Origin: Cyanobacterium aponinum PCC 10605
GTDB taxonomy: Bacteria > Cyanobacteriota > Cyanobacteriia > Cyanobacteriales > Cyanobacteriaceae
Direction of reading: 5' to 3'
Assembly: GCF_000317675.1 (NCBI RefSeq)
Contig: NC_019776.1
Span: 2,418,001-2,482,000 of the forward strand
Length of the DNA: 64,000 nt
How positions within the stretch are numbered: position 1 is the first letter of the stretch; the number at the start of each line of letters is the position of its first letter. This document shows, piece after piece, positions 8,683-59,528 of the stretch. The notes beneath the pieces are model-generated. The model was not told where the DNA came from and did not search any database. It was given only the letters and a program-made list of their open reading frames with translations. Position numbers and translations under genes: made by a program.

Positions 8683-8739
8683 TTAATAATTGATTAATTA
8701 ATATTTAAAAACTCCTGTATCTGTTGCTATTTATTAGTT

Positions 8740-9738
8740 TCAAAAATTGACATTAAGTTGATATTGTTTAACAGGAAATAACTCATTGTTACCCGATTTA
8801 GCCAATGTCAATATTTCTTTTTTGGCTTCTAATTTTCCTTTACGAGTAATTACTTTTTGAGTTTCTAATTCTAAATAACTTATTTCAATTTCAGCCCAAT
8901 TTGGCTCTTCTTCTTCTTCGTTTTCTACTTTTTCTTGTGCAATAACTCTACCTGTTTTTGGATAAGTTAACCATTTTTTGCCTATTTCTTGCCACAATTT
9001 AGCTTCAAAAATTTGTTCTAAATATGATACCCCACTCCAGCCTCGATAATAAGGACGCAATTTGTTAATATCTTCTGGGGAATTAATTAATGTTTCTAAT
9101 ATTTCTAAGTTTAAATGTCCCCAATATCTACCACTGGGAAAGTCAATTAAAGTTGGTGCAAAACGATGGCCGCCAATATGACTACAACGCCATACTCTCA
9201 AATTTTCATCGCTATATTCTTTTCTCAATTTTTCATAAATAGGATAACCAAAACGACTACAGGCTACATCTACATTGCCATGAGTACAAACTAAAATTTC
9301 TCTGATATTATCTGAATTTTTTCTATATGTTTCAAATTCATCCAGATTTGATGATGTAATTAAGCTAATAGCTAAGTCGTTGATTTTATCAAGGGGTAAG
9401 AGATATTCTCTTTTTTCTAGGTTAGTAAATAATTCCCCCGGGCGATAATAATAAATTACACGGGTTAAGCCTTTTTCTGAGTATATTTTATCAGGTGCGA
9501 TCGCGCTTAGACGAAATTTATTTAATTTTCCCTGAGAGATTAATTCAGACATGAGAGAAACGAAGGGTTTTAATTCTTCTCTGCTAGTCCAGAATTTGGC
9601 TTCCCATGGTTGAGGTAATTCCATCATTAACCATTGATCATAGCATCCAGCACTCCCTAATGGGTCTTCGCCATTATTTTGGGAGACAAGGTTACAAAAT
9701 TGGCACTCATCTAGGGTTAAAGGTGATTCTAACAACAT
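8740..9738 (-). CDS. Sucrase-ferredoxin-like protein (thioredoxin-fold [2Fe-2S] ferredoxin)
   Basis: A 332-residue soluble protein of the Suc_Fer-like family, with the signature segments LVCTHGNVDVACSRFGYP and VWRCSHIGGHRFAPTL, followed by FPSGRYWGHL. The cysteines in these segments are the expected ligands of a [2Fe-2S] cluster on a thioredoxin-like fold. Further cysteines stand near the N-terminus (ECQFCN). The function of the family is not settled. Placed convergent to a complete iron-uptake operon, a role in electron transfer for iron release is possible, but that is inference. The stop is close to the terminator at 8650-8682, and the gene has its own upstream spacer of about 250 bases. 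Confidence 0.8.
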   Translation of the reverse strand: MLLESPLTLDECQFCNLVSQNNGEDPLGSAGCYDQWLMMELPQPWEAKFWTSREELKPFVSLMSELISQGKLNKFRLSAIAPDKIYSEKGLTRVIYYYRPGELFTNLEKREYLLPLDKINDLAISLITSSNLDEFETYRKNSDNIREILVCTHGNVDVACSRFGYPIYEKLRKEYSDENLRVWRCSHIGGHRFAPTLIDFPSGRYWGHLNLEILETLINSPEDINKLRPYYRGWSGVSYLEQIFEAKLWQEIGKKWLTYPKTGRVIAQEKVENEEEEEPNWAEIEISYLELETQKVITRKGKLEAKKEILTLAKSGNNELFPVKQYQLNVNF

Positions 9739-9991
9739 AAACTACTTCCCTTATTTTTCGATCGCATCTTTAATGATGCACTTTTTAGTAAAATTTTGCA
9801 ATAACTATATTATATATAGCAATCAGAAATTATTTATGAAAAGATGAGAGAAGCAGAGTATATTTTTATGCTTTAGGAAAAATTATGAGGGAGGAGAATA
9901 ACATTTACAAGTCGGATAGTATCCAATATTCTAAATTTAATTTATAATTACTAGCAATTAAAGATAGTGGTAATAATAGAAATTATCGATA

Positions 9992-10984
9992 ATGACCATC
10001 AAGTTTGACAATCATGAGTTAAAAAAGTTATCTCAACAATATACTTCCACCATCAACCCTAATTTAATTAAGGATAAGTGCGATCGCACTTATTTAGCCC
10101 CTGAATGGCTAGGAAAAGGATATAAAAGAGAGATTGTATTACGTAACGGAATTTCATTAATTATTCATAATTACCAACTATTTGAAAATGTCATCATTGA
10201 TAATCGAGAAAATATAGATGAAACTTTAGAGATTGCTTTTAAATTGAGTTTGCCCCAGTACATTCCACCCAATATTAATATTAGTGTAAAAGACGGATTT
10301 TGCTATGTAATTGGCAAAAATAATGAAGGAGATATATGGCAGGAATTAGCAAATATTCCTTCTAAAGCAGTAGATATTCACTTAAACGAATCTTTAGTAG
10401 AATCGTTAATTAATGATTATGATGACAGTTTACCCCAAAGTTTAAAACCTTTTTTTCTTGGTAATAATAATCTACCTGTTTCCTTACCGCAAATTATTTC
10501 ACCTCAAATGAAAATGGTAATTTCACAAATTATAAATTGTTCTTTTCAAGGTATAACAAAACAAATATATTTAGAAGCAAAAACGCTGGAATTATTAGCT
10601 TTAAAAATTAATAGTTTAAGACAAATTGAACAGGTAAAACAAATCAAAATTAAACTAAAAAAAGAGGATATAGAAGCAATATATCATGCTGAAAAAATTA
10701 TAGTTGATAACTATAACAATCCACCATCTTTAATAGAATTATCTCGTCAAGTGGGCATTAACACTCGTAAATTAAAAGAGGGTTTTCGACAAATATTTCA
10801 TACTACGGTATTTGATTATTTATATCATTATCGAATGAATTTAGCTCAGAATTTGCTCAAAAAACAGAAAAATGTAGGGGTTGTTGCTCAAACAATTGGT
10901 TATGCCAGTGCCACCTCATTTAATGCCGCTTTTCAAAAACAATTCGGCGTTACTCCTAAACTTTTTCAATTAGCTCATCGTTAA
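9992..10984 (+). CDS. AraC-family transcriptional regulator (PchR-like)
   Basis: A 330-residue regulator. The first 220 residues form an effector-binding region with the block KGYKREIVLRNGISLIIHNY, shared with the other AraC proteins of the window. The C-terminal 100 residues carry two helix-turn-helix units: PSLIELSRQVGINTRKLKEG and VVAQTIGYASATSFNAAFQK, ending FGVTPKLFQ. PchR-like proteins bind an iron-siderophore complex and turn on the matching receptor gene. A second, related AraC gene follows at 11331 and then a receptor at 12670, so this one may act on that receptor or on another unit. No Fur box of good quality was seen in front of it. Confidence 0.87.
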   Translation: MTIKFDNHELKKLSQQYTSTINPNLIKDKCDRTYLAPEWLGKGYKREIVLRNGISLIIHNYQLFENVIIDNRENIDETLEIAFKLSLPQYIPPNINISVKDGFCYVIGKNNEGDIWQELANIPSKAVDIHLNESLVESLINDYDDSLPQSLKPFFLGNNNLPVSLPQIISPQMKMVISQIINCSFQGITKQIYLEAKTLELLALKINSLRQIEQVKQIKIKLKKEDIEAIYHAEKIIVDNYNNPPSLIELSRQVGINTRKLKEGFRQIFHTTVFDYLYHYRMNLAQNLLKKQKNVGVVAQTIGYASATSFNAAFQKQFGVTPKLFQLAHR

Positions 10985-37918: not shown

Positions 37919-38123
37919 CTATTCATTAGTTGTTCTATCTTTAGTAATTACCTGTAACGATTTTTGGATAGCGGCTTCGGTTTCGTTATCCACCGCCGAG
38001 GTAGCCTCATCTAAGATTAAAATAGGTGGATTCTTCAGGATAGCACGAGCGATCGCAATCCGTTGTCTTTGTCCTCCTGAGAGTTTTTGCCCCCTTTCCC
38101 CCACGATGGTATCGTATCCTTTT
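37919..38123 (-). pseudogene. Fragment of an ABC exporter gene
   Basis: This 205-base piece encodes [20 protein letters not shown] and [20 protein letters not shown], which match residues of about 479-537 of the intact exporter at 49009-50775. The DNA is about 90 percent identical to 49167-49360. Only the part from the ABC signature to just past Walker B is present; both sides are unrelated sequence. It is a leftover of a second exporter copy that once stood between the AraC gene and the binding protein. Confidence 0.85.
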
Positions 38124-38168
38124 TGACAACAAACCTAGGAATGCTATACAGTAATCTGGTTTTTAAGA

Positions 38169-39106
38169 TCAGGAAGGAATATTTCCTAGATATTTAAAAA
38201 GATCATCAATAACTCCATCTGTACCTAAAATATGACTTGCTCCCCATGCCATAAAATTAACATAATAAACTCGATCGAACTTAACCGCCTTCAGATTTTG
38301 CCATAGGGGATTATTTTTAATTTCTTCTAAAATTTTAGTACCATCATCGGAATAAGTTGTGACAAATAAAATATCTCCATCTGCTTTATTTAACTCCTCT
38401 AAAGATATAGGTAATGCACCATAGGGAGCATCTTGATTTTGTGAATCAGGGCGTTTTAAACCAGCATCTTCTAAAATTAAACCAGCAAAGGAATTTTTAG
38501 CATCAATATGGATTTTATCTCGTCCAAAATAAATAAATGATACCGTTTTATCTTGATAGCGATCGCCTAATGCTAATTTTAATCCTTTATCCGTTGGTTA
38601 TAATTAGCCCAAAGAGCTTTTTCCGCTTCTTGTTTCCCCAATGCTTCAGCAATAAAACTTAAATGCCTATCCCAATGAGTGTAATTTAATTCCCCTAAAA
38701 CCGTTGGTGCAATTTGAGATAGTTGAGGATAAATCCCTTTATACCAATCTGCCCCGATGATTAAATCTGGTTTAAGTTGAGATAATATCTCTAAATTAGG
38801 CTCTTTCAGCCCAATAAGTTTGACTCCTTCAGGGTTTCCTGATACAAATGTTACAGATGGGTTGCCTTGATGAACTTCATTAGTGGTGGCAATGGGTTTT
38901 ACTCCAAGGGAGATCGTATTTCCTAAAGTCGCTAAGGATAAAGTAACCACCTGTTGAGGATTTTGGGGAACACAAGTTTCTCCCATGCTATGCTGTATTA
39001 TGCGACAATCTCCCGTTAGTGGTGAGGAAGGGGATGTATGATGACAGGCGGTAACGAGAATAAATCCAATTAAGCCCAATATTAACCAACGGCAAAAATA
39101 TCTCAT
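38169..39106 (-). pseudogene. FecB-like binding-protein gene with a one-base frameshift
   Basis: The first frame gives a lipoprotein signal (MRYFCRWLILGLIGFILVTAC), HSMGETCVPQNPQQVVTLSL and LEILSQLKPDLIIGADWYKG, and stops at 38579 after NYNQRIKD. The C-terminal half continues in another frame: GLKLALGDRYQDKTVSFIYF, then NSFAGLILEDAGLKRPDSQN and LKAVKFDRVYYVNFMAWGAS, ending at 38169. Restoring one base in the AAAGG run near 38580 gives a full-length protein of about 312 residues. It may therefore be a recent loss or a sequencing error. It follows the FhuA-like receptor at 39217. Parts of a related gene are found at 57707. Confidence 0.85.
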
Positions 39107-39216
39107 AATTATTTTCAAAATCAATACCCGTAAAACAGAGATCTTGGTTGCGATTTATTAAATTGTGAATAATCTCACGCAAAGGCGCAAAGGCGCAAAG
39201 AAGTTCGCTAAGTTTA

Positions 39217-41820
39217 TTAAAATTTCCAAGAAAGGCTACCTAAGACGGTAAAGGGTTGTCCGTATTGAACACGGGTTGAATTTACTCCATATTCAAAGTA
39301 TTCTATGTCGAATAAGTTACGGAAATTAAGGGCAACTCTAAATTGATCTCGATTATAGAAAATGGCGGCATCCGTGCGAAAATAAATCGGTACAGTATAA
39401 GTGTTGCTTAAATCTCCTTGGCGATCGCCCATATAAAAGAAGCCTAAACCAAAGCCTAACCCCTGTAAATCACCTTCTTGCAGTTCGTAGGTTGTCCATA
39501 AGTTAAAGGAATTGTAAGGCGTATTCGGTAATTGATTACCTACGGGATAAGTATTGTCTTGAGTAATTTTAGCATTGGTATAAGCATAACCTGCAATAAT
39601 ATTCCATCCCGGCAAGATTTCCCCCGTTAAGCTAAATTCAAATCCCTGACTGTTTTGCTCTCCTGTTTGAATTTGAAAGCCCGGATTATTAGGATCTTCC
39701 GTTAAAACATTACGAAGGATTATATCATAAAATGCGAGAGTTGCAGAAAGTTGATCGCTAAAATCGGTTTTTACCCCAATCTCAAACTGTCCACCCTGTT
39801 GAGGTTCAAAAGAATTATTTAAAGCTCCATCAAAGAGAAATGCACCATAAGCAGGAGCAAAAGAACTTATATAACTACCGTAAATAGAAACTGTGGGAAT
39901 GGGTTGATAAATAATACCAAAACGAGGACTAAAAGCACTATCAGAACTACTACTTTCTGTATTGGCTGTAAAATTTTCGTAGGTTTGATCAAAAGTGTCA
40001 AAACGAACCCCTAAGACAAATTTTAATTGCTCAGTGAAAGTAATTTGATCTTGTAGATAAATCCCTAATGATTTTGTTATGGTTGTATCACTAAAATTGT
40101 CACCTGTAAGCACGGGAATTGGTTGCCCATAAACAGGGTTAAATATATCAATGGGTGAACCTGCTGTACCTCTAAAACTGGGGGTTTTATTTTCAAAACG
40201 GTTTATATCTATTCCCATTAACAACTCATGCTTAGTTAAACCCATGGAAAACTTACCAATGGCATTGGTTGTCAAACTATAAGCCGTGCTATCAAATTCA
40301 TACTCACGATAAAAACGATTCAAAGTTCTACCATCCGCCTCTAAACCACTAGGCAAATGTAATTTATCGTAATAGTCACGATAGTTATAAGCAAAAGCGT
40401 TGCGTAATAACCAATTATCGCTGAATTTATGTTCTAGTCTATAGCCGATTCTCGTTACCTTTTGCTCAGTTATATCATTTGGTTCAGCTAGGTTACGATT
40501 ACGGGGGACTTTTCCATTAGGATTAGATAACACAGTACCCACTGTCGGCACTCCGGGAGGACGAAAATAGTCTGTCGCAATCAAATAATCTCCTTCTACT
40601 GTTAGGCTAGTATTATTGCCTATCTTTACATCAATCACAGGAGAGATGCCAAAAAATTCGCTAGTATAATCATCAATAAAACTTCCTGAGTTACGATAAG
40701 CCGTATTGAAACGATATAGTAACGTTTTTGAGTCATTTAAGGGGCCAGAAAAGTCGATCGCACCTCGATAAAAATTCTCACTGCCAAAACTAGCATCAAC
40801 CTGATAAAAAGGATCAGATAAAGGGCTTTTGGTGATTAAATTAATTGTACCTCCGGGATTCCCAAAACCGAATAATACCGATGCTGGCCCTTTTAACACT
40901 TCAACCTGCTCTATACTCGAAAGTTCTACTAATTCCCCCGCCCCCGGATCAGGTAATCCATTTCTGAGAAAATTATTATCTAAGGCTTCAAAACCCCTAA
41001 TTCTATAGTAAACAGCAGAACCAGGTCCAAAATTTTGAGTTACCCCCGGCACATTTCTCAGGGCATCATCTAAACGAGTGATTTGTTGATCTCGCAATAC
41101 TTGTTGTGGTACTACCTGAACCGATTGAGGAACATCAAGTAAGGGTGTATCTGTTCTTGTAGCAGTAGAGGAGTTGGGAACAAAATAGCCTGTTTCTTGT
41201 TGCCCTTCTTGGGTTGCCACAATTTCAATTTCTGTCTCAGAGGCGGTTTGACTATCAGCCGTTACACTCAAAACTAAATTATTGTCTGAGGGTATAACCT
41301 GAGCAGTGGGAATCCCTGTTTTACCCGTTATGGTAATTCTTATGGCATTAGAATTTAAGGGTGTTACCCGAATTGTAGTAATGTCATTGGTAGGATTTTC
41401 AACATTGAACTCATCACCATCAGCAAGGGCTAAAACTGCTTCTAAAATGTCGATAATGAGAGTATTTTCTTGACTATATATCAAAGGTTGTAGATTTGAT
41501 CGAGATTCTGTGTCAAGGATAATTTGTAATCCTGTCTCAGAGGGTTCTATTTTCACTCCTGTTACTTGTACTATATCTTGTGCTAAAAGTTGCTCTGCTT
41601 TTTGAGAAATAGAAGGTAAATCACCTACTCTTAAAATATCAGACTGTTTTAAATTATTATCAATAAATGATGACTGCTTAACATTAGTTTTAATCTCAGA
41701 AATTAATAAACTATTCTCATTAGCTTTCGTTGGAGGAGAATCAAATATAGAGAAAATAGTGATAACGAAGGTGATTAAGAGCGATCGCTTCGGGAAGTAT
41801 TTAGGGGGTTGTTGTGTCAT
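39217..41820 (-). CDS. TonB-dependent siderophore receptor, FhuA-like, with AMIN domain
   Basis: A receptor of about 867 residues. The ATG at 41820 is chosen because it begins the export signal and follows GGTGTGAGAAAA, the shared leader; the longer frame to 41853 would place that leader inside the protein. It has an AMIN domain (about 95-190), a TonB box EIEIVATQEG and the linker GYFVPNSSTATRTDTPLLDV. The plug has DALRNVPGVTQN, YRIRGFEALDNNFLRNGLPD and QVEVLKGPASVLFGFGNPGG. The barrel ends TVLGSLSWKF. It is most like the receptor at 53175, suggesting duplication. Upstream on the same strand is an AraC gene (42007), and downstream the frameshifted binding protein. Confidence 0.9.
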   Translation of the reverse strand: MTQQPPKYFPKRSLLITFVITIFSIFDSPPTKANENSLLISEIKTNVKQSSFIDNNLKQSDILRVGDLPSISQKAEQLLAQDIVQVTGVKIEPSETGLQIILDTESRSNLQPLIYSQENTLIIDILEAVLALADGDEFNVENPTNDITTIRVTPLNSNAIRITITGKTGIPTAQVIPSDNNLVLSVTADSQTASETEIEIVATQEGQQETGYFVPNSSTATRTDTPLLDVPQSVQVVPQQVLRDQQITRLDDALRNVPGVTQNFGPGSAVYYRIRGFEALDNNFLRNGLPDPGAGELVELSSIEQVEVLKGPASVLFGFGNPGGTINLITKSPLSDPFYQVDASFGSENFYRGAIDFSGPLNDSKTLLYRFNTAYRNSGSFIDDYTSEFFGISPVIDVKIGNNTSLTVEGDYLIATDYFRPPGVPTVGTVLSNPNGKVPRNRNLAEPNDITEQKVTRIGYRLEHKFSDNWLLRNAFAYNYRDYYDKLHLPSGLEADGRTLNRFYREYEFDSTAYSLTTNAIGKFSMGLTKHELLMGIDINRFENKTPSFRGTAGSPIDIFNPVYGQPIPVLTGDNFSDTTITKSLGIYLQDQITFTEQLKFVLGVRFDTFDQTYENFTANTESSSSDSAFSPRFGIIYQPIPTVSIYGSYISSFAPAYGAFLFDGALNNSFEPQQGGQFEIGVKTDFSDQLSATLAFYDIILRNVLTEDPNNPGFQIQTGEQNSQGFEFSLTGEILPGWNIIAGYAYTNAKITQDNTYPVGNQLPNTPYNSFNLWTTYELQEGDLQGLGFGLGFFYMGDRQGDLSNTYTVPIYFRTDAAIFYNRDQFRVALNFRNLFDIEYFEYGVNSTRVQYGQPFTVLGSLSWKF

Positions 41821-41892
41821 TTTTCTCACACCAATATTTAGAATAATTTGCAATAAACAATAGGTTACTGATTACCCTATGACAATGCAAGA

Positions 41893-41937
41893 GACTTTGG
41901 TGGGGTAGAGGGAATTTTTTTGGTGGGGAAAATTGAG
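41893..41937 (-). promoter_or_regulatory. Tandem direct-repeat operator candidate ahead of the receptor at 39217-41820
   Basis: On the minus strand, AATTTTCCCCACCAAAAAAA and CCTCTACCCCACCAAAGTCT share CCCCACCAAA with a 23-base period. The sequence is different from the operators of the other receptors, but the layout and the distance to the start codon are the same. Confidence 0.5.
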
Positions 41938-42006
41938 TATCACCTTAGATGACAAAAAAACTTTGTACCTTTCTTTGCGTCTTTGCAAGAGAAATTACCT
42001 TTACAG

Positions 42007-43005
42007 CTAGAATCGATAACCCTTTAAATAATCTCTTGGATTGACATTAAATTTCTTCCGAAAAGCCATAGCAAAATGATGTCGATCACAATATCCTACC
42101 GCATTCATCACCTCTTTTACTCCCATTTGTCCTGTTTCCAATAACTGCTTTGCCTGTTGTAGTCTATAGTTGCGTAAGTAGTCAAAAATAGTAGTCTTAA
42201 AAACTTCTTTAAAACCCTGCTTTAGAGTATATTCGTTTAACTGCACTTGTCGGGCTAATTCTGCGATGGATGGGGGTTGATGCAGATTTGCAAGGAGTAT
42301 GCTTTTTGCTGAATGAATACGGGCGATCGTACAACGGCACTGCTCGATCGAACTTTTAGGATAACAAGATTCTTGAGATAATGCTTCTATTTGTTCAGCT
42401 ATGACTAAACCAATTAATTCTAAGGCTTTTGCCTCAAGATATATACGCTTTGTGATACCCTGAAAAGGACAACGTAATATTTGCCATAAAATCCCTTCTA
42501 ACATAGGGGTAACTTTCCCTACACAGGCATAACTTTGTCTCGTAAGGGGTTTAATAAAGTTATGTAACGGTTTTGGTAATTCTCCATCTTTACTCCCAAT
42601 ATAAGAGATTAATCTTTCCGTATCAACGTGAATATTCACTTCTAAAACCTTTTGAGGAGGCACTTCATTAATTTGTTGAGGTACAAAACCAGTGCCATAT
42701 AAAGCAAATTCTTGATTATTAACGATCGTATCTAAGTCTTGATGATAGCCAAAAAGATGAAAATGAAATATGATATTGTCTCTTGCCGTCTCATTATTTT
42801 TAAGTAAATAGTGTTGAGTAATATCACAATTGAGAATCTCTATAGTTAATCCCCTTGTCAATTTTATTTCTCTGCTGTAACCATCCCCCATTATGGATGA
42901 AAAAGGATAGGTAATATCGTTACAGTCTAAAGAATCCACATAAGTATTTTTGAGCGTTTCTTCCCATAGAATTTGATTATCTTCAGGAGTAATAATAATA
43001 GTCAT
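42007..43005 (-). CDS. AraC-family transcriptional regulator (PchR-like)
   Basis: A 332-residue AraC/PchR-like regulator. The ligand domain has GDGYSREIKLTRGLTIEILN. The DNA-binding part has PSIAELARQVQLNEYTLKQG and VMNAVGYCDRHHFAMAFRKK, ending FNVNPRDYL. It lies between two receptors: it reads toward the one at 39217-41820 and away from the one at 43251. Each receptor has its own, different operator pair, so this regulator may control only one of them. A Fur-like box 67 bases before its start suggests iron repression of the regulator itself. Confidence 0.88.
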   Translation of the reverse strand: MTIIITPEDNQILWEETLKNTYVDSLDCNDITYPFSSIMGDGYSREIKLTRGLTIEILNCDITQHYLLKNNETARDNIIFHFHLFGYHQDLDTIVNNQEFALYGTGFVPQQINEVPPQKVLEVNIHVDTERLISYIGSKDGELPKPLHNFIKPLTRQSYACVGKVTPMLEGILWQILRCPFQGITKRIYLEAKALELIGLVIAEQIEALSQESCYPKSSIEQCRCTIARIHSAKSILLANLHQPPSIAELARQVQLNEYTLKQGFKEVFKTTIFDYLRNYRLQQAKQLLETGQMGVKEVMNAVGYCDRHHFAMAFRKKFNVNPRDYLKGYRF

Positions 43006-43071
43006 AATTGATAGATAATGACTCAGTGAAGAAAATAACGTTATTCATTGTAAACGAAATTTCAAGTTTAT

Positions 43072-43086
43072 TGATAATAATTTTTA
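43072..43086. promoter_or_regulatory. Fur-box-like site between divergent AraC and receptor genes
   Basis: TGATAATAATTTTTA matches the 7-1-7 Fur pattern TGATAATnATTATCA at 13 of 15 positions. It stands 67 bases before the AraC gene and about 165 before the receptor at 43251. Confidence 0.5.
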
Positions 43087-43125
43087 ATTAAATCGGTTCA
43101 ACTATAAATTTTTTGACTAATTGCT

Positions 43126-43170
43126 AAAAAAGTCTGTTTCACAAAGAAAAAAGTCCGTTTCACAAAGATT
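43126..43170 (+). promoter_or_regulatory. Tandem direct-repeat operator candidate ahead of the receptor at 43251
   Basis: AAAAGTCTGTTTCACAAAGA and AAAAGTCCGTTTCACAAAGA occur in the same direction with a 21-base period and differ at a single base in 20. With the pair at 19544 it is the best-preserved operator in the window. Confidence 0.65.
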
Positions 43171-43250
43171 AGTCTTGCTTAAATCCCCTATCATTTACTG
43201 ACTAATAATAAATATTTGCATTAATTAGGGTAAGTGAGGCAAAAAATAAA

Positions 43251-45758
43251 ATGAAGAAAATTGGGCAAAATCTTTCAATGACAGTACTTACAGTCAGTTT
43301 ATTCTGTCCATCGGTGTTGGCACAGGAAACTAATATTATCGAGCAAAATATTATCAATAACTCTCCAGCAGAAACGACACAGAATAACATTATTGAAATT
43401 AACAATATTGAAGTAACACAAACAGAAGAAGGTATTAACCTTTTATTACAAACTAATGAGCAATTATCATCTCCTGAGATTACCATTACAGAAAATGCTC
43501 TTATTGCGGATATTCCTAACGTCGTGCTTAATCTGGCAACGGGAGAAGAATTTTTACTTAGTAATCCAGTGGAAGGTATTGCTTTAATTAATGTGGTCAA
43601 TCTGCCCGATAATCGAGTCAGAGTAAGTATTACAGGTACAAACGCTCCCCCCGTTGTGGACATTCAAACAAGCCTATCAGAGACGATTTTAACTGCTAAA
43701 CAAGGCACATCTACAGGGGAAACAGAGAGTTCGATCGAAATCATCGCTACCGCAGAAGCACAGCAGGAAAATAATTATTTTGTACCCTCAGCAAGTACCG
43801 CAACTCGCACAGATACGCCAATTCTTGATACACCTCAATCAATTCAAGTTGTACCTCAACAAGTATTAAGAGATCAACAGGTGATTCGGGTGGACGATGC
43901 TTTGCGCAATGTTAGTAACGTGATTGGACGTTTAAGTCCTTTCGGTGCTAGTACAAGCCTTACCATTAGGGGATTTACTAGCGATAACTTTACGGGAGGG
44001 CCAATTTTGCGGGATGGTTTTCGAGTAAATGATAATCTTGGCACTCAAGAAACCGCTAACGTGGAAAGAGTAGAGGTATTAAAGGGGCCTTCTTCCGTAC
44101 TTTATGGACAAAACGATCCAGGGGGTATTATTAATTTAGTCACCAAAAGACCGTTATTTGAGCCGTTTTATGAGGTAGGTTTACAGGTAGGAAGTTATAC
44201 TCTTATTCGTCCGACGATCGACATTTCAGGCCCTTTAACGGAAGACAAATCATTGCGTTATCGTTTAAACTTTGCCTACTTTAATGATGCAGGTTTCCGA
44301 GATTTTACGGTGGATACTCAAAGACTTTTTATTGCTCCTGTATTAACGTGGGATATTGGTGACAAAACCAGTTTTACGGTGCTTTTAGAATATACTGATG
44401 AGCAAAACCCCTTTGACTTAGGTATTCCGGCAAGAGGAAAAGGAGTATTTAATGTGCCATCTAGTCGAGTTGTCGGTGAGCTTGATGATACATTAAAAAA
44501 TACCACTATCAACGTTGGCTATGATTTTAAACATGAATTTAACGATGACTGGACTTTTAATCATGGTTTTCGTTACATTAATCAGAATTATAATGTGTTC
44601 CCCTTATTGCCATTTTTTGTGGATGAAAAGACGGGTAATATTAGTTTATTTTATGCTGATCGCTCTTATCGTTCCGATGATTATACCATTCAAACCAATG
44701 TGGTAGGGAATTTTAAGACAGGTTCGGTGAAACATACTCTTTTAGCGGGATTAGACTTAAATTTTAATCGTTTTGATGAGCAATATACGAGAGTTGATTT
44801 TAGTACTCCAGTTTTATTTAATATTTTTGATCCTGTTTATGGGGCTATTCCTCGCCCTGATTTAAGTGAGTTAGAACCTTTCGCACCCTTTGATACTCAG
44901 TACGATCGCTATGGAGTATTTCTGCAAGACCAGGTTAATTTCGGAGATAAATTTATTTTAGTCGGTAGTATTCGTTATGATGTGATCGATTTTCGTATTA
45001 ATCCGAACTATGACGCAACCTCAGTAAACAGATCAGACAATAAATGGAGTCCAAGGGTGGGATTTATTTATAAGCCCATAGAAACCGTATCAATTTATGG
45101 TAATTATTCCCAATCCTTTAAGCCTAATTTTGGTTCAGATTCTAAGGGTAACGCCTTTGAGCCAGAGACGGCAGAAGGTTTTGAGGTAGGGGTAAAAGCA
45201 GAATTTTTAGAAGGAAAAATGTTTACTACTTTAGCTTATTTTGATATTACTAAGCAAAATGTGGTAACGGCAGATCCAGTGAATCCTCTGTTTTCCGTAC
45301 TTTCAGGGGAACAGCGCTCTCAGGGGTTTGAGCTTGATATAGCAGGGGAAATCTTACCCGGTTGGAGAATTATTGCAAACTATGCTTATACCGATGCCAG
45401 AGTTACTAAAGACAATACTATCCCTGTAGGTAATCGTTTATTTAATGCCCCTTATAACAGTGCTGGATTATGGACTACTTATGAGTTTCAAGAAGGCGAT
45501 GTGAAAGGTTTAGGATTTGGTTTAGGTTTTAACTATGTGGGCGATCGCTACGGTGATTTAGCTAACAGTTACAAAGTAGGGGATTATTTTGTGACGAATA
45601 TGGCTGTTTTTTATAATCAGGAAGATTGGCGTATTGCCCTTAATGTTAATAATCTTTTTGATGTTAAGTATATCAGTAGTACTTTTAATTCTCGAAATTT
45701 TGGTAATGCTTTTGGGCAACCTTTGACAGTGATTGGTTCGGTGTCGATTAAGTTTTAA
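43251..45758 (+). CDS. TonB-dependent siderophore receptor, FhuA-like, with AMIN domain
   Basis: An 835-residue receptor with a signal peptide ending VLAQE, an AMIN domain (about 45-140), a TonB box SSIEIIATAEA and the linker YFVPSASTATRTDTPILDTP. The plug has DALRNVSNVIGR, LTIRGFTSDNFTGGPILRDG and RVEVLKGPSSVLYGQNDPGG. The barrel ends TVIGSVSIKF. The start lies after AAGTGAGGCAAAAAATAAA, a version of the shared leader. It overlaps the stop codon of a small convergent gene. The binding protein and MFS genes that would complete the unit follow at 46275 and 47334, after two small genes on the other strand. Confidence 0.9.
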   Translation: MKKIGQNLSMTVLTVSLFCPSVLAQETNIIEQNIINNSPAETTQNNIIEINNIEVTQTEEGINLLLQTNEQLSSPEITITENALIADIPNVVLNLATGEEFLLSNPVEGIALINVVNLPDNRVRVSITGTNAPPVVDIQTSLSETILTAKQGTSTGETESSIEIIATAEAQQENNYFVPSASTATRTDTPILDTPQSIQVVPQQVLRDQQVIRVDDALRNVSNVIGRLSPFGASTSLTIRGFTSDNFTGGPILRDGFRVNDNLGTQETANVERVEVLKGPSSVLYGQNDPGGIINLVTKRPLFEPFYEVGLQVGSYTLIRPTIDISGPLTEDKSLRYRLNFAYFNDAGFRDFTVDTQRLFIAPVLTWDIGDKTSFTVLLEYTDEQNPFDLGIPARGKGVFNVPSSRVVGELDDTLKNTTINVGYDFKHEFNDDWTFNHGFRYINQNYNVFPLLPFFVDEKTGNISLFYADRSYRSDDYTIQTNVVGNFKTGSVKHTLLAGLDLNFNRFDEQYTRVDFSTPVLFNIFDPVYGAIPRPDLSELEPFAPFDTQYDRYGVFLQDQVNFGDKFILVGSIRYDVIDFRINPNYDATSVNRSDNKWSPRVGFIYKPIETVSIYGNYSQSFKPNFGSDSKGNAFEPETAEGFEVGVKAEFLEGKMFTTLAYFDITKQNVVTADPVNPLFSVLSGEQRSQGFELDIAGEILPGWRIIANYAYTDARVTKDNTIPVGNRLFNAPYNSAGLWTTYEFQEGDVKGLGFGLGFNYVGDRYGDLANSYKVGDYFVTNMAVFYNQEDWRIALNVNNLFDVKYISSTFNSRNFGNAFGQPLTVIGSVSIKF

Positions 45759-45976
45759 GCTACTACTAAGAGGGATTTTTGGACATCGATGGGTAACTCA
45801 ATTAGTGAGAAATAAGTGGCAGGATATAAGTAATCTTCTCCACTTTCATCAATGATTCTTAAATCTCCATCGAGTTGTGCTTCTTCATCAGGAATAACAC
45901 GATAAATTTTATGTAATTCTAAGGAGGCAGGATAATTTTGATTGTTTAAACAGACTGCAAATTGATAATTTTTCAT
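45755..45976 (-). CDS. Small conserved-looking protein (73 aa), possible toxin-antitoxin partner
   Basis: A 73-residue protein starting MKNYQFAVCLNNQNYPASLE with the acidic middle DEEAQLDGDLRIIDESGEDY and no membrane segment. It follows the 78-residue gene at 45981 by only four bases on the same strand, so the two are one operon. Small paired genes of this kind are frequent in cyanobacterial genomes. A basic and an acidic partner would suit a toxin-antitoxin pair, but I do not recognise either family with certainty. The pair splits a receptor from its binding-protein gene. Its stop codon overlaps that of the receptor on the opposite strand. Confidence 0.55.
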   Translation of the reverse strand: MKNYQFAVCLNNQNYPASLELHKIYRVIPDEEAQLDGDLRIIDESGEDYLYPATYFSLIELPIDVQKSLLVVA

Positions 45977-45980
45977 AGTC

Positions 45981-46217
45981 TTAATCTAAATAACGTTTTC
46001 TTTTTATTTCTCTTTTGCCAATGCCATGTGCTTCGTACCAATGTATTTCTGCTTTTCTAATTTTACCATTCGTTAAACGAATTGTTGCTATGCCCTTGAG
46101 TTTACGCCAACGCTTTCCACCATAAATCTTACGAAGACGATCGAGATCTCGAATTGAATTACCAACAGCTATGTTTTCAATTTCAGTAATATTGCTGATA
46201 ATTTCAAAGTCCATCAA
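45981..46217 (-). CDS. Small basic protein (78 aa), first gene of a two-gene operon
   Basis: A 78-residue protein with a Lys/Arg-rich second half: RKIYGGKRWRKLKGIATIRL, then KAEIHWYEAHGIGKREIKRK. A start one codon later (MDFEIIS) is also possible. The basic charge and the size suit an RNA- or DNA-binding toxin-like protein paired with the acidic protein downstream, but this is only an inference from charge and arrangement. Similar small proteins are common in cyanobacteria without known function. Confidence 0.5.
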   Translation of the reverse strand: MMDFEIISNITEIENIAVGNSIRDLDRLRKIYGGKRWRKLKGIATIRLTNGKIRKAEIHWYEAHGIGKREIKRKRYLD

Positions 46218-46274
46218 TTTATTTTTGTCAAAGTAATTGGTTTAATTTTATGGTCAATATTAAGAATTATTTAT

Positions 46275-47300
46275 ATGAGAAACTTTAACTATTTTTTTCG
46301 GCTAATTATTGGTTTTTTCTTAATTTCTTGTACTAGGAATACTTCTACTTCTATCTCTAATAATAATGATGATAATTGTCGTTCGATTAGCCATCAAATG
46401 GGGGAAGCGAAGATATGTGATGAACCAAAAAGAATTGTAGCATTGGGGCCTAATGTTTTAGAACCTCTTTTAGCTTTACAAGTTCAAGCCATTGCTTTTG
46501 CTGATCATATCGGTTTTTATACCAAAGATTATACCAATCCTTTAGAACAAATCCCCTATTTAGGAAAGTATATCAATGAGTCCATGACTAATGTGGGTAT
46601 TGCTTATACTCCCAATATTGAACAGATTTTAAAGGTTAAACCAGACTTGATTTTAGGGGTTGAAATCAATAACGCTAGTCAATACGAAATGTTATCAAAA
46701 ATCGCTCCTACTCTCATTTTAGATTGGGATAAACCAATGGAAAATATGAAGACGATCGCCCAAGCAGTTAACCGTGAAACTCAAGCGGAAGAACTATTAC
46801 AAACAACTCAAGCTCAAATAGCAAAGGCAAAAACAGAATTTGCTCCCGTAGTCAAGAAACATCCGAAAGTGCTTTTACTCTATGCGAAAGGATTACAAGA
46901 ATTAATTTCTGATAATTCAAGGGGGCTTTGTAGTTCATTGGTGAAGGATTTAGGGTTTCAACTGGTATCGCCACCGAAATCGAACCCTTCTCAGCCTGAT
47001 ACTCGCACCCCTATTTCCCTTGAAATTTTACCTCAATTAGAAAAAGCGGACTCCATCATCTTGTTAGGGTATAACTTCAGCCAACCAGAAACCCTCAAGG
47101 ATATAGACAATTTTGCACAACATCAACTGACTGAGACACAACAAGCATGGGCAAAAAACGAAATCGCCCAATCTTTAGAAGCTAGTAAAGAAGGGAGAGT
47201 TTATTATATTCCTGCTTATATGTGTCTTGGTTTAACAGGTGCGATCGGCACAGAATTATACCTTAACGAGCTTAAAACACAACTACTACCAAAATTATAA
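46275..47300 (+). CDS. FecB-like siderophore-binding lipoprotein
   Basis: A 341-residue periplasmic binding protein. It has a lipoprotein signal MRNFNYFFRLIIGFFLISC, the entry motif SISHQMGEAKICDEPKRIVA, IEQILKVKPDLILGVEINNA, and the C-terminal ASKEGRVYYIPAYMCLGLTG. It is closest in build to the protein at 22237, both with a longer central part and a partner FhuA-like receptor. It precedes the MFS gene at 47334 and belongs functionally with the receptor at 43251. No dedicated permease is nearby. Confidence 0.86.
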   Translation: MRNFNYFFRLIIGFFLISCTRNTSTSISNNNDDNCRSISHQMGEAKICDEPKRIVALGPNVLEPLLALQVQAIAFADHIGFYTKDYTNPLEQIPYLGKYINESMTNVGIAYTPNIEQILKVKPDLILGVEINNASQYEMLSKIAPTLILDWDKPMENMKTIAQAVNRETQAEELLQTTQAQIAKAKTEFAPVVKKHPKVLLLYAKGLQELISDNSRGLCSSLVKDLGFQLVSPPKSNPSQPDTRTPISLEILPQLEKADSIILLGYNFSQPETLKDIDNFAQHQLTETQQAWAKNEIAQSLEASKEGRVYYIPAYMCLGLTGAIGTELYLNELKTQLLPKL

Positions 47301-47333
47301 CCCTTTGCGCCTTTGCGTGAGATATTTTTTAAT

Positions 47334-48545
47334 GTGAAAACCTTTATTATTCTTTGGTTAGGGCAATTATTTTCCGCCGTGGGTAGTGCCATGACTTACT
47401 TTACCCTCACTCTATGGGTGTGGCAAAAAACCGAATCTGCCACTGCGATCGCACTTATCCTTGTATTTTATCAATTACCCCAAGTGATCATTACTCCTTT
47501 AACGGGTATTTTAATCGATCGAACCTCTCGCAAACAATTATTAATTATCAGCGATACAGGTTCGGCATTTTGTACTATTTCCGTAGGGATTCTCGCCTTT
47601 TTGGGGACTCTGCAAGTATGGCATATTTATCTCATTGCTTCGGTTATTGGTTGCTTTGGTAATATTCAATCTCTTACCTACTCTACCCTTATCCCCCTGA
47701 TTTTGCCCGAAAAACATCACACTCGTGCTAGTAGTATGGGAGCGATGGTGGTTTACGGTGCGGGGATTATTTCCCCAGCTTTGGCTGGTGTTTTATTTCC
47801 CCTGATAGGTTTATTCGGTATTACCTTAATTGATATGGGAACATTTGCGATCGCATTTTGTTTTATCCTGATGATCCATATTCCTCATACTATCAAACAA
47901 GATCAAGAAAAAGTTAATCACCTCTCCAATTTAACCTTTGGATTTCGTTATATTTACTCCCATCCTGAATTGTTATCAATGGTGATAATGGTATCTTTAT
48001 TTAGCTTTTTCAATGATATTAGCGAAACTCTATATCAACCGATGATATTAGCCAAAACTGACAGTAATAGCCAAATTTTGGGCATAGTGGTAGCTGGAGG
48101 AGGTTTGGGTGGAGTAGTGGGGGGATTAATAGTTAGTGTGTGGGGAGGATTCAAAAAACTTAGACGAGGTATTTTTACGGGTTTTTTAGGCACTGGAATA
48201 AGTATCTTAATTTTGGCTTTAGCTTCTTTACCTAGTTTTTGGATTATAGCAAGATTTGCATGGTCGTTTCATCACCCTTTGATGATGAGTTCTTATATGG
48301 CTATATGGTATGCTAAAATTCCTCATCATTTACAAGGTAGGGTTTTTGGTGCTGATTATCTCATTGGTATTCTAGTTACAACTTGCTCTAGTTTAACCGC
48401 AGGAGTATTGAGCGATCGCATTTTTGAACCTTTGCTACAATCACAATATTCCTTACCTTCAGGTAGTGGTATGGCTTTCTTGATCGCAATAAGTGCCACT
48501 ATAATTATTTTAGTTAGCAGTAAAGTGGCAAATATTCTTGATTAG
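47334..48545 (+). CDS. Major facilitator transporter, EntS-like
   Basis: A membrane protein of about 403 residues with twelve hydrophobic segments. The GTG at 47334 gives MKTFIILWLGQLFSAVGSAM, aligning with the other MFS proteins. The longer frame from a TTG at 47313 starts inside a dispersed CGCAAAG repeat and is less likely. The loop motif is TGILIDRTSRKQLLIISDTG. It follows the binding protein by 33 bases. A heavily deleted second copy of the same gene is at 57949-58294. Its pairing with receptor and binding protein, repeated at 25785-29419, suggests that the MFS protein is part of the uptake cycle for that siderophore. Confidence 0.85.
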   Translation: MKTFIILWLGQLFSAVGSAMTYFTLTLWVWQKTESATAIALILVFYQLPQVIITPLTGILIDRTSRKQLLIISDTGSAFCTISVGILAFLGTLQVWHIYLIASVIGCFGNIQSLTYSTLIPLILPEKHHTRASSMGAMVVYGAGIISPALAGVLFPLIGLFGITLIDMGTFAIAFCFILMIHIPHTIKQDQEKVNHLSNLTFGFRYIYSHPELLSMVIMVSLFSFFNDISETLYQPMILAKTDSNSQILGIVVAGGGLGGVVGGLIVSVWGGFKKLRRGIFTGFLGTGISILILALASLPSFWIIARFAWSFHHPLMMSSYMAIWYAKIPHHLQGRVFGADYLIGILVTTCSSLTAGVLSDRIFEPLLQSQYSLPSGSGMAFLIAISATIIILVSSKVANILD

Positions 48546-49008
48546 TGCAAGATTAACTCTCAGAATTCGGGGCTAAGAGTTAAAGCTGAAGGAGGGATAA
48601 TAACTCTAAAAACCTTATAGGTAGCAGGTAGCAGGTGTTAGGTGTTAGATTTTGTATCCACTAATATTTATCATTATCTCTATTTACTCAATGGTTCAAA
48701 TAATAGGCAAAACTATTGTATTATCAACATTTTGAGATAATATGTAATATGTCTGGCTATTTATTTCGTAAAGACAAAATACTATTCATGTACTTGAAAC
48801 CTGAAACCTGAAACCTGAAACCTAAAACCTACCCTTCGCTACCCTCTTAAATGGTTATTGTCGCCCTAGGGATTTTATTTTAGTCGAAGAATTGTCGATC
48901 GCACTGCGGTTTTATTGAGTTGGAAACGATTATAACCCATTTTGAAGAACACCTGTTATGATGTTAATCTTTTGGTAGGTAAGAGTTTGAGACCTATTCA
49001 GTAAACCC
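48546..49008. repeat. Gene-free spacer with low-complexity repeats
   Basis: This 463-base gap between converging genes has AGGTAGCAGGTAGCAGGTGT (near 48619) and a run of AACCTGAAACCTGAAACCTG (near 48795-48830), the same units found inside the MITE-like elements. It contains no convincing reading frame or terminator. Confidence 0.45.
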
Positions 49009-50775
49009 CTAATTAATTCCCGACTGCACCGCCCAAAGGCTATGATAAATTCCTTCTAATGCTAATAATTCTTCATGTTTTCCTTGCTCGACTATTTGCC
49101 CTTTATCCATGACATAAATGCGATCGCAATTCCTTATAGTTGAAAGACGATGGGCGATGGCAATAGTTGTTCTATCTTTAGTAATCACTTGCAACGATTT
49201 TTGGATAGCGGCTTCGGTTTCGTTATCCACTGCGGAGGTAGCCTCATCTAAGATTAAAATAGGGGGATTTTTTAGGATGCCCCTGGCGATCGCAATGCGT
49301 TGTCTTTGTCCTCCTGAAAGTTTTTGCCCTCTTTCTCCTACGATGGTATCGTATCCTTGGGGTAATTGTTGAATAAAGTCATCACATTCTGCTAATTTGG
49401 CCGCTTGGATGATTTCTGTTAAAGTAGCGTCAAAGTTACCATAAGCGATATTTTCAGCTACCGTGCCATGAAATAAAAACACATCCTGACTTACCCATGC
49501 GATCGCCTTTCTGAGATCATGTAAATATAATTCTTGGATATTAACACCATCAATGGTAATTTCTCCGTGATCAATTTCATAAAATCTTAGTAATAATTTA
49601 ACTAAAGTGCTTTTTCCTGAACCTGTTGCCCCGACAATACCGATATTACTCTTAGCTCGAATGTCCATGGATAAATTTTTTAGCACTTTTACCCCATTGT
49701 CATAAGCAAAATTCACATTGACGATGGAAATTTCCCCCTTTATTGGTGTGGAGAAGGTTTTATTTCCTGAATGAATCCTAATAGGAGTATCAAGTAAACC
49801 CATGACTCGCCGAATAGAAGCCATTGCCCTTTGATATTGATCCATCAATTCGCTTAAAGTAGCAAAAGGCCATAAAAGATATTGAACGATAAACACCATA
49901 AAGCCGTAAGTGCCTACGGTTAATTGATTCTGACTGACAGCAACCCCCCCAAAAAATAAGGTTGCGATAAACCCCATGACGATGATTAAACGAATAGCAG
50001 GAATAAAAACAGAAGAAAGGGCGATCGCACTTCGGTTACTACGGCGATAGGCTTCGCTTTCATTTTTTACCCTCGATTGTTCATAAATTTCGGCGGTAAA
50101 ACTTTTGATGGTTGCAATGCCCGAAATATTGTTAGCTAGACGAGTATTAATCAATCCTGCTTTATCCCTTACATCTGCATAAAGAGGGGCAAGTCGTTTT
50201 TGAAATGCCAATGATCCCCATAAAATAAAAGGAATAGGTAAAATAGCTAACCATGCCACTTGGGGAGCAATTAGTATAAAAGAACCACCTACAAAAATTA
50301 TGGTGGTGATAAAGCGAATAATACTTTCCGCACCCGAATCCAAAAACCTTTCCAGTTGGTTAATATCGTCATTTAAGATAGATAATAGCGTACCCGTTGA
50401 TCGTTCTTCAAAATAGCTTAATTCTAATTCTTGTAAATGACTATAGGCATCAAATCTTAATTCATGTTGCAAAGTTTGAGCTAAATTACGCCACAGACGC
50501 TCATAAATAAACTCTGACAGTGACTCTAAACTCCATACCAATAGAGTAATCAAAGAGAGAATGGCTAATTGAGTAATGGTATTAGTGAAACCCCATTGAG
50601 CAATAAATGAATCTTCTTTTAACACCACAATATCTACTGCTACACCAATCAAGTAGGAAGGGGCAAGATCGAATATAGTATTTAAAATAGTGGCAATAGT
50701 TGCGATCGAGATTTGAGTTTGATAGTTTTTACTGTATTTTAATAGTCTGAAAAGGGGATGATTTTTTGATGACAT
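49009..50775 (-). CDS. ABC exporter (membrane and ATPase domains fused), MsbA-like
   Basis: A 588-residue half-transporter working as a homodimer. The membrane domain (about 15-310) has six segments. The ATPase domain has Walker A GATGSGKST (382-390), signature LSGGQRQR (486-493), Walker [13 protein letters not shown] (506-517) and the switch histidine in IAHRLS (H542). The substrate is unknown. Exporters of this type in siderophore loci either expel siderophores or, as in YbtPQ and IrtAB, import them; this is family knowledge, not seen here. It stands alone but a fragment of a second copy lies at 37919, next to another receptor unit, which ties the gene to the island. Confidence 0.87.
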   Translation of the reverse strand: MSSKNHPLFRLLKYSKNYQTQISIATIATILNTIFDLAPSYLIGVAVDIVVLKEDSFIAQWGFTNTITQLAILSLITLLVWSLESLSEFIYERLWRNLAQTLQHELRFDAYSHLQELELSYFEERSTGTLLSILNDDINQLERFLDSGAESIIRFITTIIFVGGSFILIAPQVAWLAILPIPFILWGSLAFQKRLAPLYADVRDKAGLINTRLANNISGIATIKSFTAEIYEQSRVKNESEAYRRSNRSAIALSSVFIPAIRLIIVMGFIATLFFGGVAVSQNQLTVGTYGFMVFIVQYLLWPFATLSELMDQYQRAMASIRRVMGLLDTPIRIHSGNKTFSTPIKGEISIVNVNFAYDNGVKVLKNLSMDIRAKSNIGIVGATGSGKSTLVKLLLRFYEIDHGEITIDGVNIQELYLHDLRKAIAWVSQDVFLFHGTVAENIAYGNFDATLTEIIQAAKLAECDDFIQQLPQGYDTIVGERGQKLSGGQRQRIAIARGILKNPPILILDEATSAVDNETEAAIQKSLQVITKDRTTIAIAHRLSTIRNCDRIYVMDKGQIVEQGKHEELLALEGIYHSLWAVQSGIN

Positions 50776-57544: not shown

Positions 57545-57706
57545 TTAAAATAAAGCAAAAGTCTTAAGATAAACTTTCATCATCATCTTTTCTCATGATT
57601 TACGTACATCGAATAAAACATCGTCATTTTGAAAGTAGCAAAGATAAAAAATCTCAAAACCCTTATTTTTATTAAAAATGCGTAAGCCCAGATAAAATCT
57701 TAATGA

Positions 57707-57956
57707 TCAAGAAGGAAGATTTGCTGGATATTTAAAAAGATAATCTATTACTCCATCTGTACCTAAAATATGACTTACCCCTATGCCATAAAATTAACAT
57801 AGTAAACTCGATCGAACTTAACCGCCTTCAGACTTTTCCATAGAGAATTATTTTTAATTTCCTCAATTAAACCAGCAAAAGAATTTTTAGTATTAATATG
57901 GATTTTATCTCGTCCAAGATAGGTAAAAGATATTATTTTATCCTGATAGCGATCGC
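57707..57956 (-). pseudogene. Remnant of a FecB-like binding-protein gene
   Basis: This piece matches the C-terminal end of the frameshifted gene at 38169-38580: the stop region, the GTDGVIDDL-like stretch and the segment encoding FGRDKIHIDAKNSFAGLI. A base is missing near 57783, and about 140 bases are deleted between TTTAATTTCCTC and AATTAAACCAGC, where the intact copy has two TTCTAAAATT direct repeats. The upstream end stops exactly at a HIP1 octamer (57949-57956), beyond which the sequence is MFS gene. Confidence 0.85.
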
Positions 57957-58294
57957 ACTTATCCTTGTGTTTTATCGATTACTCCAAATTATCATTACCC
58001 CGTTAACGGGTATTTTAATCGATCGCACCTCCTATAAACAAATTATTAATTGTAATGATGCTGGTTCGGGATTTTGCATTATTTCTACAACCTTAGCGAG
58101 TGTTTGATTTCCCTAGGTAGGTTTATCTTGGTATTACCTTAATTGATATAGCCACAAAATGCGATCGCATTTTTGAATCCTTACTACAATCACAATATTC
58201 CTTACCTTCAGGTAGTGGTATGGCTTTCTTAATGGCAATAAGTGCTGTAATGATTAGTTTAATTAGCAATAAAGTTACAAAAGTTCTTAATTAA
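57949..58294 (+). pseudogene. Remnant of an EntS-like MFS gene with several deletions
   Basis: From the HIP1 octamer onward, the sequence matches the intact MFS gene at 47334: LIDRTSYKQIINCNDAGSGF against LIDRTSRKQLLIISDTGSAF. It then jumps to a part matching about 47800 (GITLIDM region) and, at a second GCGATCGCA (near 58160), to the last 130 bases of the gene (IFEPLLQSQYSLPSGSGMAF). The three pieces are in gene order, so successive internal deletions produced it. The end, at 58294, corresponds to the stop codon of the intact gene. Confidence 0.88.
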
Positions 58295-58475
58295 TCAGAA
58301 ATTAATTCAACTATAAACTAACTTTCAAATTCTAAAACCCCTTATTTTCGATTTTTTTTGGCTATTACTTGCTAATAATTATTAATTAATATAAGATATT
58401 AAGTTGATAATTAAATCAATAAATCATCTCTGCATTAGTCTTAAAAATCACATCAAAAAAGCAGAAATCATTACA

Positions 58476-59528
58476 ATGAAAGCGAAAAATCTCTTATTAA
58501 TATCCCTATTAAGTGCTATTCTCAACAACATGACGATGACATCATCGCCTGTTTTTGCTAATACTATTACTCTTCCCGATGGCGGTAAATGCGAAGGTGA
58601 GGTTTCAGGGGGTAATCTTAACGGTGAAGCCAAATGTACTTTTAGTAATGGCGATCGCTACGAGGGTAATTTTGTCGATGGGGAAAAGCAAGGTAAAGGA
58701 AAATATACTTTTGCCAATGGTGGTTACTATGAAGGTGAATTTCAAAATAGCCAATTTGAGGGGCAAGGTGTAAGAGTTTTTCCCGAAGGGGATAAGTATG
58801 AGGGAGAGTTTAAAGAAGGTAAGCCAGAAGGGAAAGGGGTTTATACCTCTACTGATGGTAGTCGCTATGAGGGAAATTTTGTCAATGGTTTGCCCCAAGG
58901 GGAAGGTACATTTATCTATAGTAATGGGGACAGTTGTACTGGAATGGTAACTGACGGTAAAATTAATGGCCAAGGTATTTGTACTTATGAAAATGGCGAT
59001 CGCTATGAAGGATTATTAGTGGATAGTCAACCTCAAGGAGAAGGAATCTATACTTTTGCTGATGGCGGTATTTATCAAGGTACTTTTCAAGAAGGAAGAA
59101 TCAGTGGTAAAGGTGAGCGTAAATATGCTGATGGAGATAGTTATGAGGGGGAAATAAAAAATGGTATTCCTCATGGTAAGGGTATTTATAAATTTGCAGA
59201 TGGCGGAGTATATGAGGGAGATTTTGAAAACGGCAAACAAGTTGGTAAGGGTATATATAAATTTGCCAATGGTAATCGTTACGACGGCGAATTTGTGAAT
59301 GGACAATTTGAGGGAGAAGGAATTTTTACTTTTGCGAATGGGGATGTCTGTCAAGGCACATTTAAAAATAATCAATTAAATGGCGATGTCATTTGCGATT
59401 ATGCCAATGGAGACACCTATAAAGGAGAGTTTGTTAATGGGAAGAAAAATGGCAGAGGAGTTTATAATTTTGCTGATGGCACGGTCATTGATGGCAATTG
59501 GAAAGATGACCAACCGATAAATAATTAA
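58476..59528 (+). CDS. Secreted MORN-repeat protein
   Basis: A protein of about 350 residues. The ATG at 58476 gives the signal peptide MKAKNLLLISLLSAILNNMT, cut after PVFANT; a TTG at 58404 would add 24 residues. The rest is about thirteen MORN units of about 23 residues, of the type GDRYEGNFVDGEKQGKGKYT. Some units carry cysteine (GDSCTGMVTDGKINGQGICT). MORN repeats form elongated beta sheets that bind lipids or proteins. The export signal places it in the periplasm or outside. It lies beyond the remnants, at the edge of the island, with no visible link to iron uptake. Confidence 0.85.
   Translation: MKAKNLLLISLLSAILNNMTMTSSPVFANTITLPDGGKCEGEVSGGNLNGEAKCTFSNGDRYEGNFVDGEKQGKGKYTFANGGYYEGEFQNSQFEGQGVRVFPEGDKYEGEFKEGKPEGKGVYTSTDGSRYEGNFVNGLPQGEGTFIYSNGDSCTGMVTDGKINGQGICTYENGDRYEGLLVDSQPQGEGIYTFADGGIYQGTFQEGRISGKGERKYADGDSYEGEIKNGIPHGKGIYKFADGGVYEGDFENGKQVGKGIYKFANGNRYDGEFVNGQFEGEGIFTFANGDVCQGTFKNNQLNGDVICDYANGDTYKGEFVNGKKNGRGVYNFADGTVIDGNWKDDQPINN

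Follow-up and report, generated by a model that had tools for sequence, protein, structure and literature searches.

Deletion between short direct repeats as the probable origin of a trimmed transporter-cluster remnant in a cyanobacterial genome: HIP1 at one of four junctions, and plausibly at two

Bacteria in general can lose the DNA between short direct repeats through slippage or annealing. The octamer HIP1 (GCGATCGC), common in cyanobacteria and of still debated function, has been linked to such events, and a HIP1 deletion in cadmium-tolerant cells was reportedly read as HIP1 promoting gene rearrangement. Among the closest described systems, a deletion at the metallothionein locus which involved HIP1 is attributed to Gupta 1993 (cited in PMC6331805), the promotion of excision by HIP1, similarly frequent in E. 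coli and Synechococcus PCC 7942, to Robinson 1997 (cited in PMC4390886), and site-specific recombination at HIP1 in Synechococcus PCC 7002 to Akiyama 1998 (cited in PMC4390886). A 188.6-kb inversion in S. elongatus PCC 7942 lies between somB and somB2, with HIP1 ahead of the inversion in both (PMC9239245). As these works are cited, the use of HIP1 as short homology was already reported for deletion in 1993 and for recombination in 1997 and 1998, and it is not a new phenomenon. The accessible text of PMC5101192, PMC4730716, PMC6604393 and PMC3025956 adds no junction data, and no survey of HIP1 at pseudogene junctions appears among the literature titles and abstract openings listed, which are mostly non-subscription.

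The locus compared here with these systems lies in a window of 64,000 nucleotides, the whole stretch of DNA that was analysed (G000:C1:2418001-2482000), in a 4.18-Mb cyanobacterial genome, G000. Base-level comparison within the window identifies 57700-58308 as a collinear, shrunken copy of 38163-48559, composed of five pieces in the same order and on the plus strand, where the source span runs from a minus-strand binding-protein gene through a plus-strand MFS transporter gene, both of the iron-uptake type. Two of the pieces (A and B) come from the 3' half of the periplasmic binding-protein gene and three (C to E) from the MFS gene, and the DNA missing relative to the source copy amounts to about 147, 8886, 190 and 565 bp, in four pieces. 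The remnant carries HIP1 at 57949 and 58161, and the source genes carry it at 38559, 47445, 47847 and 48412, so that the sites which a preliminary description of this DNA had reported in the binding-protein and MFS genes are recovered; its “intact” binding-protein copy at 38169-39106, by contrast, has a broken reading frame. The segments and the genes that bear on them are as follows.

Segment A, 57700-57864, minus strand: 3' part of the binding-protein (Peripla_BP_2-type) remnant; equals 38163-38327, 90%.
Segment B, 57865-57956, minus strand: middle part of the binding-protein remnant; equals 38475-38566, 88%.
Segment C, 57949-58085, plus strand: MFS transporter remnant; equals 47445-47581, 84%.
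Segment D, 58078-58173, plus strand: MFS remnant; equals 47766-47859, 80%.
Segment E, 58161-58308, plus strand: 3' end of the MFS remnant; equals 48412-48559, 84%.
Source-type binding-protein gene, 38163-39106, minus strand: itself a pseudogene, with its frame broken at about 38582-38588; HIP1 at 38559.
Source-type MFS transporter gene (MFS_1), 47313-48545, plus strand: open; HIP1 at 47445, 47847 and 48412.
MORN-repeat gene, 58404-59528, plus strand: neighbour of the remnant; in genomes G005 and G008 it comes immediately after the MFS gene.

A separate 198-bp fragment at 37924-38121, which adjoins the broken binding-protein gene, is 90% identical to part of an ABC exporter gene (49161-49358).

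The remnant is probably a decaying second copy of the transporter cluster which was trimmed by deletion between short direct repeats, HIP1 being used as a frequent and stable repeat. Under this account, a second copy of the cluster, the first of which still stands at 38.2-48.6 kb, would have decayed to ~0.6 kb, from what was presumably ~10.4 kb, through deletions between short direct repeats, by replication slippage or by single-strand annealing or end joining over roughly 7-13 bp, and HIP1 would have served as the repeat at the junction designated J2 and plausibly, as the core of a 13-bp repeat, at the junction designated J4. It would have been used at these places because it is a very frequent and stable short repeat in an AT-rich genome. 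The five collinear segments point to the loss of intervening DNA with collinear flanks, provided that the ancestor shared the 10.4-kb layout of the source copy, as it presumably did; the events would then have been deletions, rather than inversions or translocations.

Like the remnant, the metallothionein locus lost DNA in a deletion involving HIP1, but that locus was reportedly functional and the cells cadmium-tolerant, whereas the present case is an old remnant in which HIP1 is certain at one junction and involved at no more than two of four. The excision of 1997 resembles the remnant as illegitimate short-homology recombination between HIP1 copies for which no cyanobacterial factor is evidently needed, although it was assayed on cloned sequences, while the remnant records natural genome decay. 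The inversion in S. elongatus PCC 7942 is likewise a natural rearrangement with HIP1 near its breakpoints, but it is an inversion between two porin genes and the remnant reads as a deletion. With general short-repeat deletion the remnant shares short repeats at or beside three of its junctions (J1, J2 and J4) and the single copy left at J2, and it differs in the identity of the repeat, which is HIP1 at J2 and plausibly also at J4. The remnant is thus a real and tidy natural example, with a HIP1 repeat at one of its junctions and plausibly at another, of a mechanism class that is known, and it shows that HIP1 can be the homology for gene trimming in nature.

The junctions were placed by scoring every possible break, with small gaps allowed, under five gap penalties, and J4 was further tested with 16 combinations of parents taken from G000, G005, G008 and Geminocystis sp. 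GBBB08. Where two junctions had been claimed, the count is four; J1 and J3 had been overlooked, and neither is at HIP1.

Junction J1, 57861-57866, unstranded: break after 57864; 147 bp missing relative to 38163-39106; not HIP1.
Junction J2, 57949-57956, unstranded: GCGATCGC (HIP1); 38559-38566 joined to 47445-47452; 8886 bp missing.
Junction J3, 58074-58087, unstranded: ~190 bp missing (about 47573 to 47766); weak similarity TATTTCC; not HIP1.
Junction J4, 58156-58173, unstranded: ~565 bp missing (47847 to 48412); HIP1 at 58161-58168.

The fusion of the binding-protein fragment to the MFS fragment had been assigned to HIP1 at 57949-57956, and base-level scoring puts J2 exactly there: whichever of the five gap penalties is applied, the optimal break zone is the octamer and nothing else (break after 57948 to 57956), and the junction keeps one copy of the repeat. 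The second join that had been placed on HIP1, inside the MFS remnant near 58160, is confirmed only in part. At mild penalties the J4 zone (break after 58155/58156 to 58173) includes the octamer, but at the two strongest penalties the break falls after 58155 to 58160, just left of it; with the 16 parent combinations the placement shifts within 58155-58174, and the highest-scoring parents (left G005, right G000) put the break after 58155, again left of HIP1. The zone contains the 13-bp repeat GCGATCGCATTTT (HIP1+ATTTT), which is common to 47847 and 48412, and J4 is compatible with this repeat, the placement being neither exact nor proven. J1 adjoins the 12-bp repeat TCTTCTAAAATT (38323 and 38467; spacing 144), and at J3, where the break falls after 58075-58078, the similarity extends over only ~7 bp and the placement is unstable at strong gap penalties. 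An exact repeat is therefore present at J2 and compatible with J4, while J1 lies beside one and J3 has a weak one; the little homology at J3, the 3 bp lost at J1 beyond the repeat spacing and the possible position of J4 to the left of HIP1 are points against short-repeat deletion. The octamer at J4 is also the centre of an 18-bp perfect palindrome AAAATGCGATCGCATTTT (window 58156-58173), the left arm of which fits neither parent well. Templated palindrome correction at J4 was considered and rejected, since extended HIP1 palindromes occur near the shuffled rate (8/871 against 8.4 in G000 stretches, 3/667 against 6.0 in G001).

The octamers could in principle have arisen at or near the junctions after the event, as HIP1 spread by base substitution, in which case their presence would be coincidental and not causal. 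The HIP1 sites of the MFS gene do vary among relatives (GCGATTGC, GCCATCGT and similar), and a G005-like left parent without HIP1 scores best for J4; the full GCGATCGC, however, is present in this genome's own source genes at both parental breakpoints of J2 (38559/47445) and of J4 (47847/48412), and the J2 zone consists of exactly those eight bases. We regard a later origin of the octamers as extremely improbable.

If homology had played no part, the chance of a junction falling on HIP1 would be ~4x10^-7 per junction (hand arithmetic, from 21 in-register HIP1 pairs among ~5x10^7 position pairs in 10.4 kb), and because such a coincidence is so rare, homology mattered at J2. HIP1 evidently supplied it there, and plausibly at J4. 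The significance of HIP1 as such depends on the repeats with which it is compared. HIP1 pairs make up 21 of the 1411 direct repeat pairs of at least 8 bp in the locus, and against all such repeats the chance that two or more of four junctions fall at HIP1 is ~0.001 (hand arithmetic, for a comparison chosen post hoc). Among the locus repeat pairs at least as stable as HIP1, on the other hand, HIP1 pairs are 21 of 52, and against these equally stable repeats two or more of four is about an even chance, again by hand arithmetic. Over 600 kb of G000, HIP1 accounts for 140/739 stable pairs at spacings of 20-1000 and for 1788/5770 at spacings of 20-10000. The repeat at J4 is both the longest and the most stable of the 91 direct repeats of at least 7 bp in the MFS gene, and that at J1 is the longest in the binding-protein gene, yet 86 locus pairs are as stable or more so. 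Among the 121 repeats shared between the binding-protein and MFS genes, HIP1 pairs rank first, third and fourth by stability, the pair of J2 being joint third; by length, nine of the 121 exceed 8 bp and the J2 octamer is not outstanding. J1, J2 and J4 each lie at or next to a repeat which is either unsurpassed in length within its gene or in the top ranks of those available for stability. Nothing specific to HIP1 is therefore needed, and the simplest view is that the deletions made use of strong short repeats, HIP1 often being among the strongest. The stability ranking (21/52 in the locus) is a simple null for any claim of special HIP1 recombination to beat, and there is no good evidence here for a special role of HIP1. 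The earlier conclusion that HIP1 acted as short homology holds at J2 and, plausibly, also at J4; the other two junctions, however, lie elsewhere, no HIP1-specific role is called for, and the use itself is not new.

The comparison with relatives bears on the ancestral layout that deletion presupposes. DNA matches to the remnant are found in five of 60 genomes, G000 included, and the matches listed include no intermediate of the remnant. Of the named relatives found for the MFS gene, Geminocystis sp. GBBB08 is the closest (82% of residues); the MFS pieces of the remnant share 85% identity with the G000 copy and 79-82% with those of G005, G008 and GBBB08. The MORN gene comes immediately after the MFS gene in G005 and G008, just as it follows the remnant in G000, and the remnant therefore sits in an arrangement common to another genus. 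The whole genome of the congener G001 contains no DNA match to the remnant, and in the 400 kb of G001 around the syntenic place no match to window 1-59641 exceeds 150 bp. Of the nine site-by-relative comparisons at the parental MFS sites (three sites, each in G005, G008 and GBBB08), only one has the full octamer, so the ancestral state rests mainly on the G000 copy.

It is conceivable, if rather unlikely, that the pieces were united by recombination between distant HIP1 sites, through translocation or through inversion via the palindrome, and not by deletion within one 10-kb copy. HIP1 is palindromic and can pair in either orientation, and the synteny of G000 and G001 is broken into short blocks despite ~93.5% identity. 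Moreover, the 20-kb stretches of G008 and G005 have the MFS gene beside the MORN gene, and the matches listed for them include none to the minus-strand binding-protein gene 38169-39106; the ancestor of the remnant may therefore have had another layout. The orientation and order of all five segments nevertheless match 38163-48559, and deletion alone explains them.

Among the matches listed outside G000, the only one that spans J2 is a 34-bp match in G005 (L018). It was rejected as a shared fusion: the match sits where an unrelated open reading frame, presumably for a diacylglycerol-kinase-like protein, ends, and it reflects chance similarity around HIP1. The J4 region is also identical over 23 bp to another place (L007), which was set aside as an unrelated HIP1 context. 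An ortholog of the MFS gene in G008 (L099:13200-13340) has its own internal loss of ~170 bp, with only a T-rich join and not at HIP1. The observation that points most clearly beyond the remnant is a binding-protein-family fragment in G014, from another genus (L098:12089-12262), which ends at the octamer position of J2, there decayed to GCGGTCGC (L098:12254-12261). To its left is a putative gene which we take to be transposase-like, and further right lies repeated sequence. The edge of this fragment may be an independent event or a shared ancestral edge.

Short-direct-repeat deletion treats HIP1 as one strong repeat among others, and the contrary reading is that HIP1 is a specific recombination or breakage site, nicked or marked for example via its methylated CGATCG core, which steered the decay. 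This we consider unlikely. The site-specific recombination in Synechococcus PCC 7002 (Akiyama 1998, cited in PMC4390886) lends it a precedent, but the title of Robinson 1997 (cited in PMC4390886/PMC6331805) gives similar excision frequencies in E. coli and Synechococcus PCC 7942. Within the locus, it can appeal to one to two of four junctions at so small a share of the repeats of at least 8 bp, an argument against which stands the roughly even chance among repeats at least as stable. Outside the locus, it can appeal to the G014 edge and to some of the breakpoints in a survey of 1.604 Mb of G000 and 1.2 Mb of G001, of which 425 kb were aligned at 93.5% identity.

That survey bears directly on the suggestion that junctions at HIP1 might be more frequent than its density predicts, and it reveals no overall excess: 6 of 8640 distinct alignment ends (from 18,925 alignments within and between G000 and G001) lie at a shared HIP1, where 7.4 are expected from internal density, and the present remnant supplies three of the six. 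For all low-copy sets together the count is 5/1212 against 3.28 expected, and for low-copy matches between G000 and G001 it is 1/616 against 1.95. Low-copy intragenomic ends do show an excess that would favour a specific site (4/596 against 0.71 expected; 4/254 against 0.36 for matches of 60-700 bp), but three of these four belong to the remnant, of which the excess is almost wholly made. In addition, 25 common control octamers occur at low-copy ends 8 times against 2.1 expected, and alignment ends therefore favour any shared octamer.

The fourth intragenomic match, which also counts towards a specific site, is a 157-bp fragment at G000:C1:2576403-2576559 (L082:14403-14559) that starts exactly at HIP1; its source gene is presumably oxidoreductase-like. 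An open copy of that gene stands at L108:15660-16760, and the fragment adjoins a small repeat of the form HIP1-like-13 bp-HIP1. The hit between G000 and G001, near G000:C1:2617995 (L084), which likewise favours a specific site, is a 21-bp indel (length counted by hand) bordered by HIP1 and the HIP1-like GTGATTGC. Its insert resembles a HIP1-13 bp-HIP1 small repeat, and this repeat, present near both breakpoints, is rare, with three copies in the G000 stretches and one in the G001 stretches for the one pattern counted.

Indels between the two genomes weigh on the other side, with little power. A first pass over 247 kb of G000/G001 yielded 12 clean indels from 80 candidates, with none at HIP1, and a larger pass placed none of 24 clean indels of at least 20 bp at HIP1 (120 candidates, 96 of which were dropped for score or flank identity below the set limits). 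The power of this count for true deletions is low because, of the seven clean indels with a repeat of at least 8 bp, six resemble insertions of mobile elements with target duplications, judging by their inverted ends or copy number, a reading drawn from the sequence of the ends, for which 13 of the 24 indels were inspected. The 21-bp HIP1-bordered indel was missed by the indel survey, being at the end of an aligned block. Among small indels, HIP1 is in the repeat in none of 37 rows (25 of them listed, at least three double entries), and the 10 rows with repeats of at least 8 bp are mostly tandem-repeat slippage. The survey gives no support to HIP1 as a general breakpoint hotspot, although its results would be compatible with a preference. 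A broader proposal is that HIP1 octamers are favoured places for breakage or annealing, perhaps because methylation directs nicking to them, and so guide how cyanobacteria shed redundant genes, with pseudogenes trimmed from HIP1 to HIP1. This is in our estimation very improbable; if it were true, the binding-protein octamer as a fragment edge in two genera would be the first sign of such trimming.

Three of the 13 larger indels inspected have 24-34 copies (at least 60% of the length) across the G000 stretches and no copy in those of G001, a pattern such as recently spread small elements would produce.
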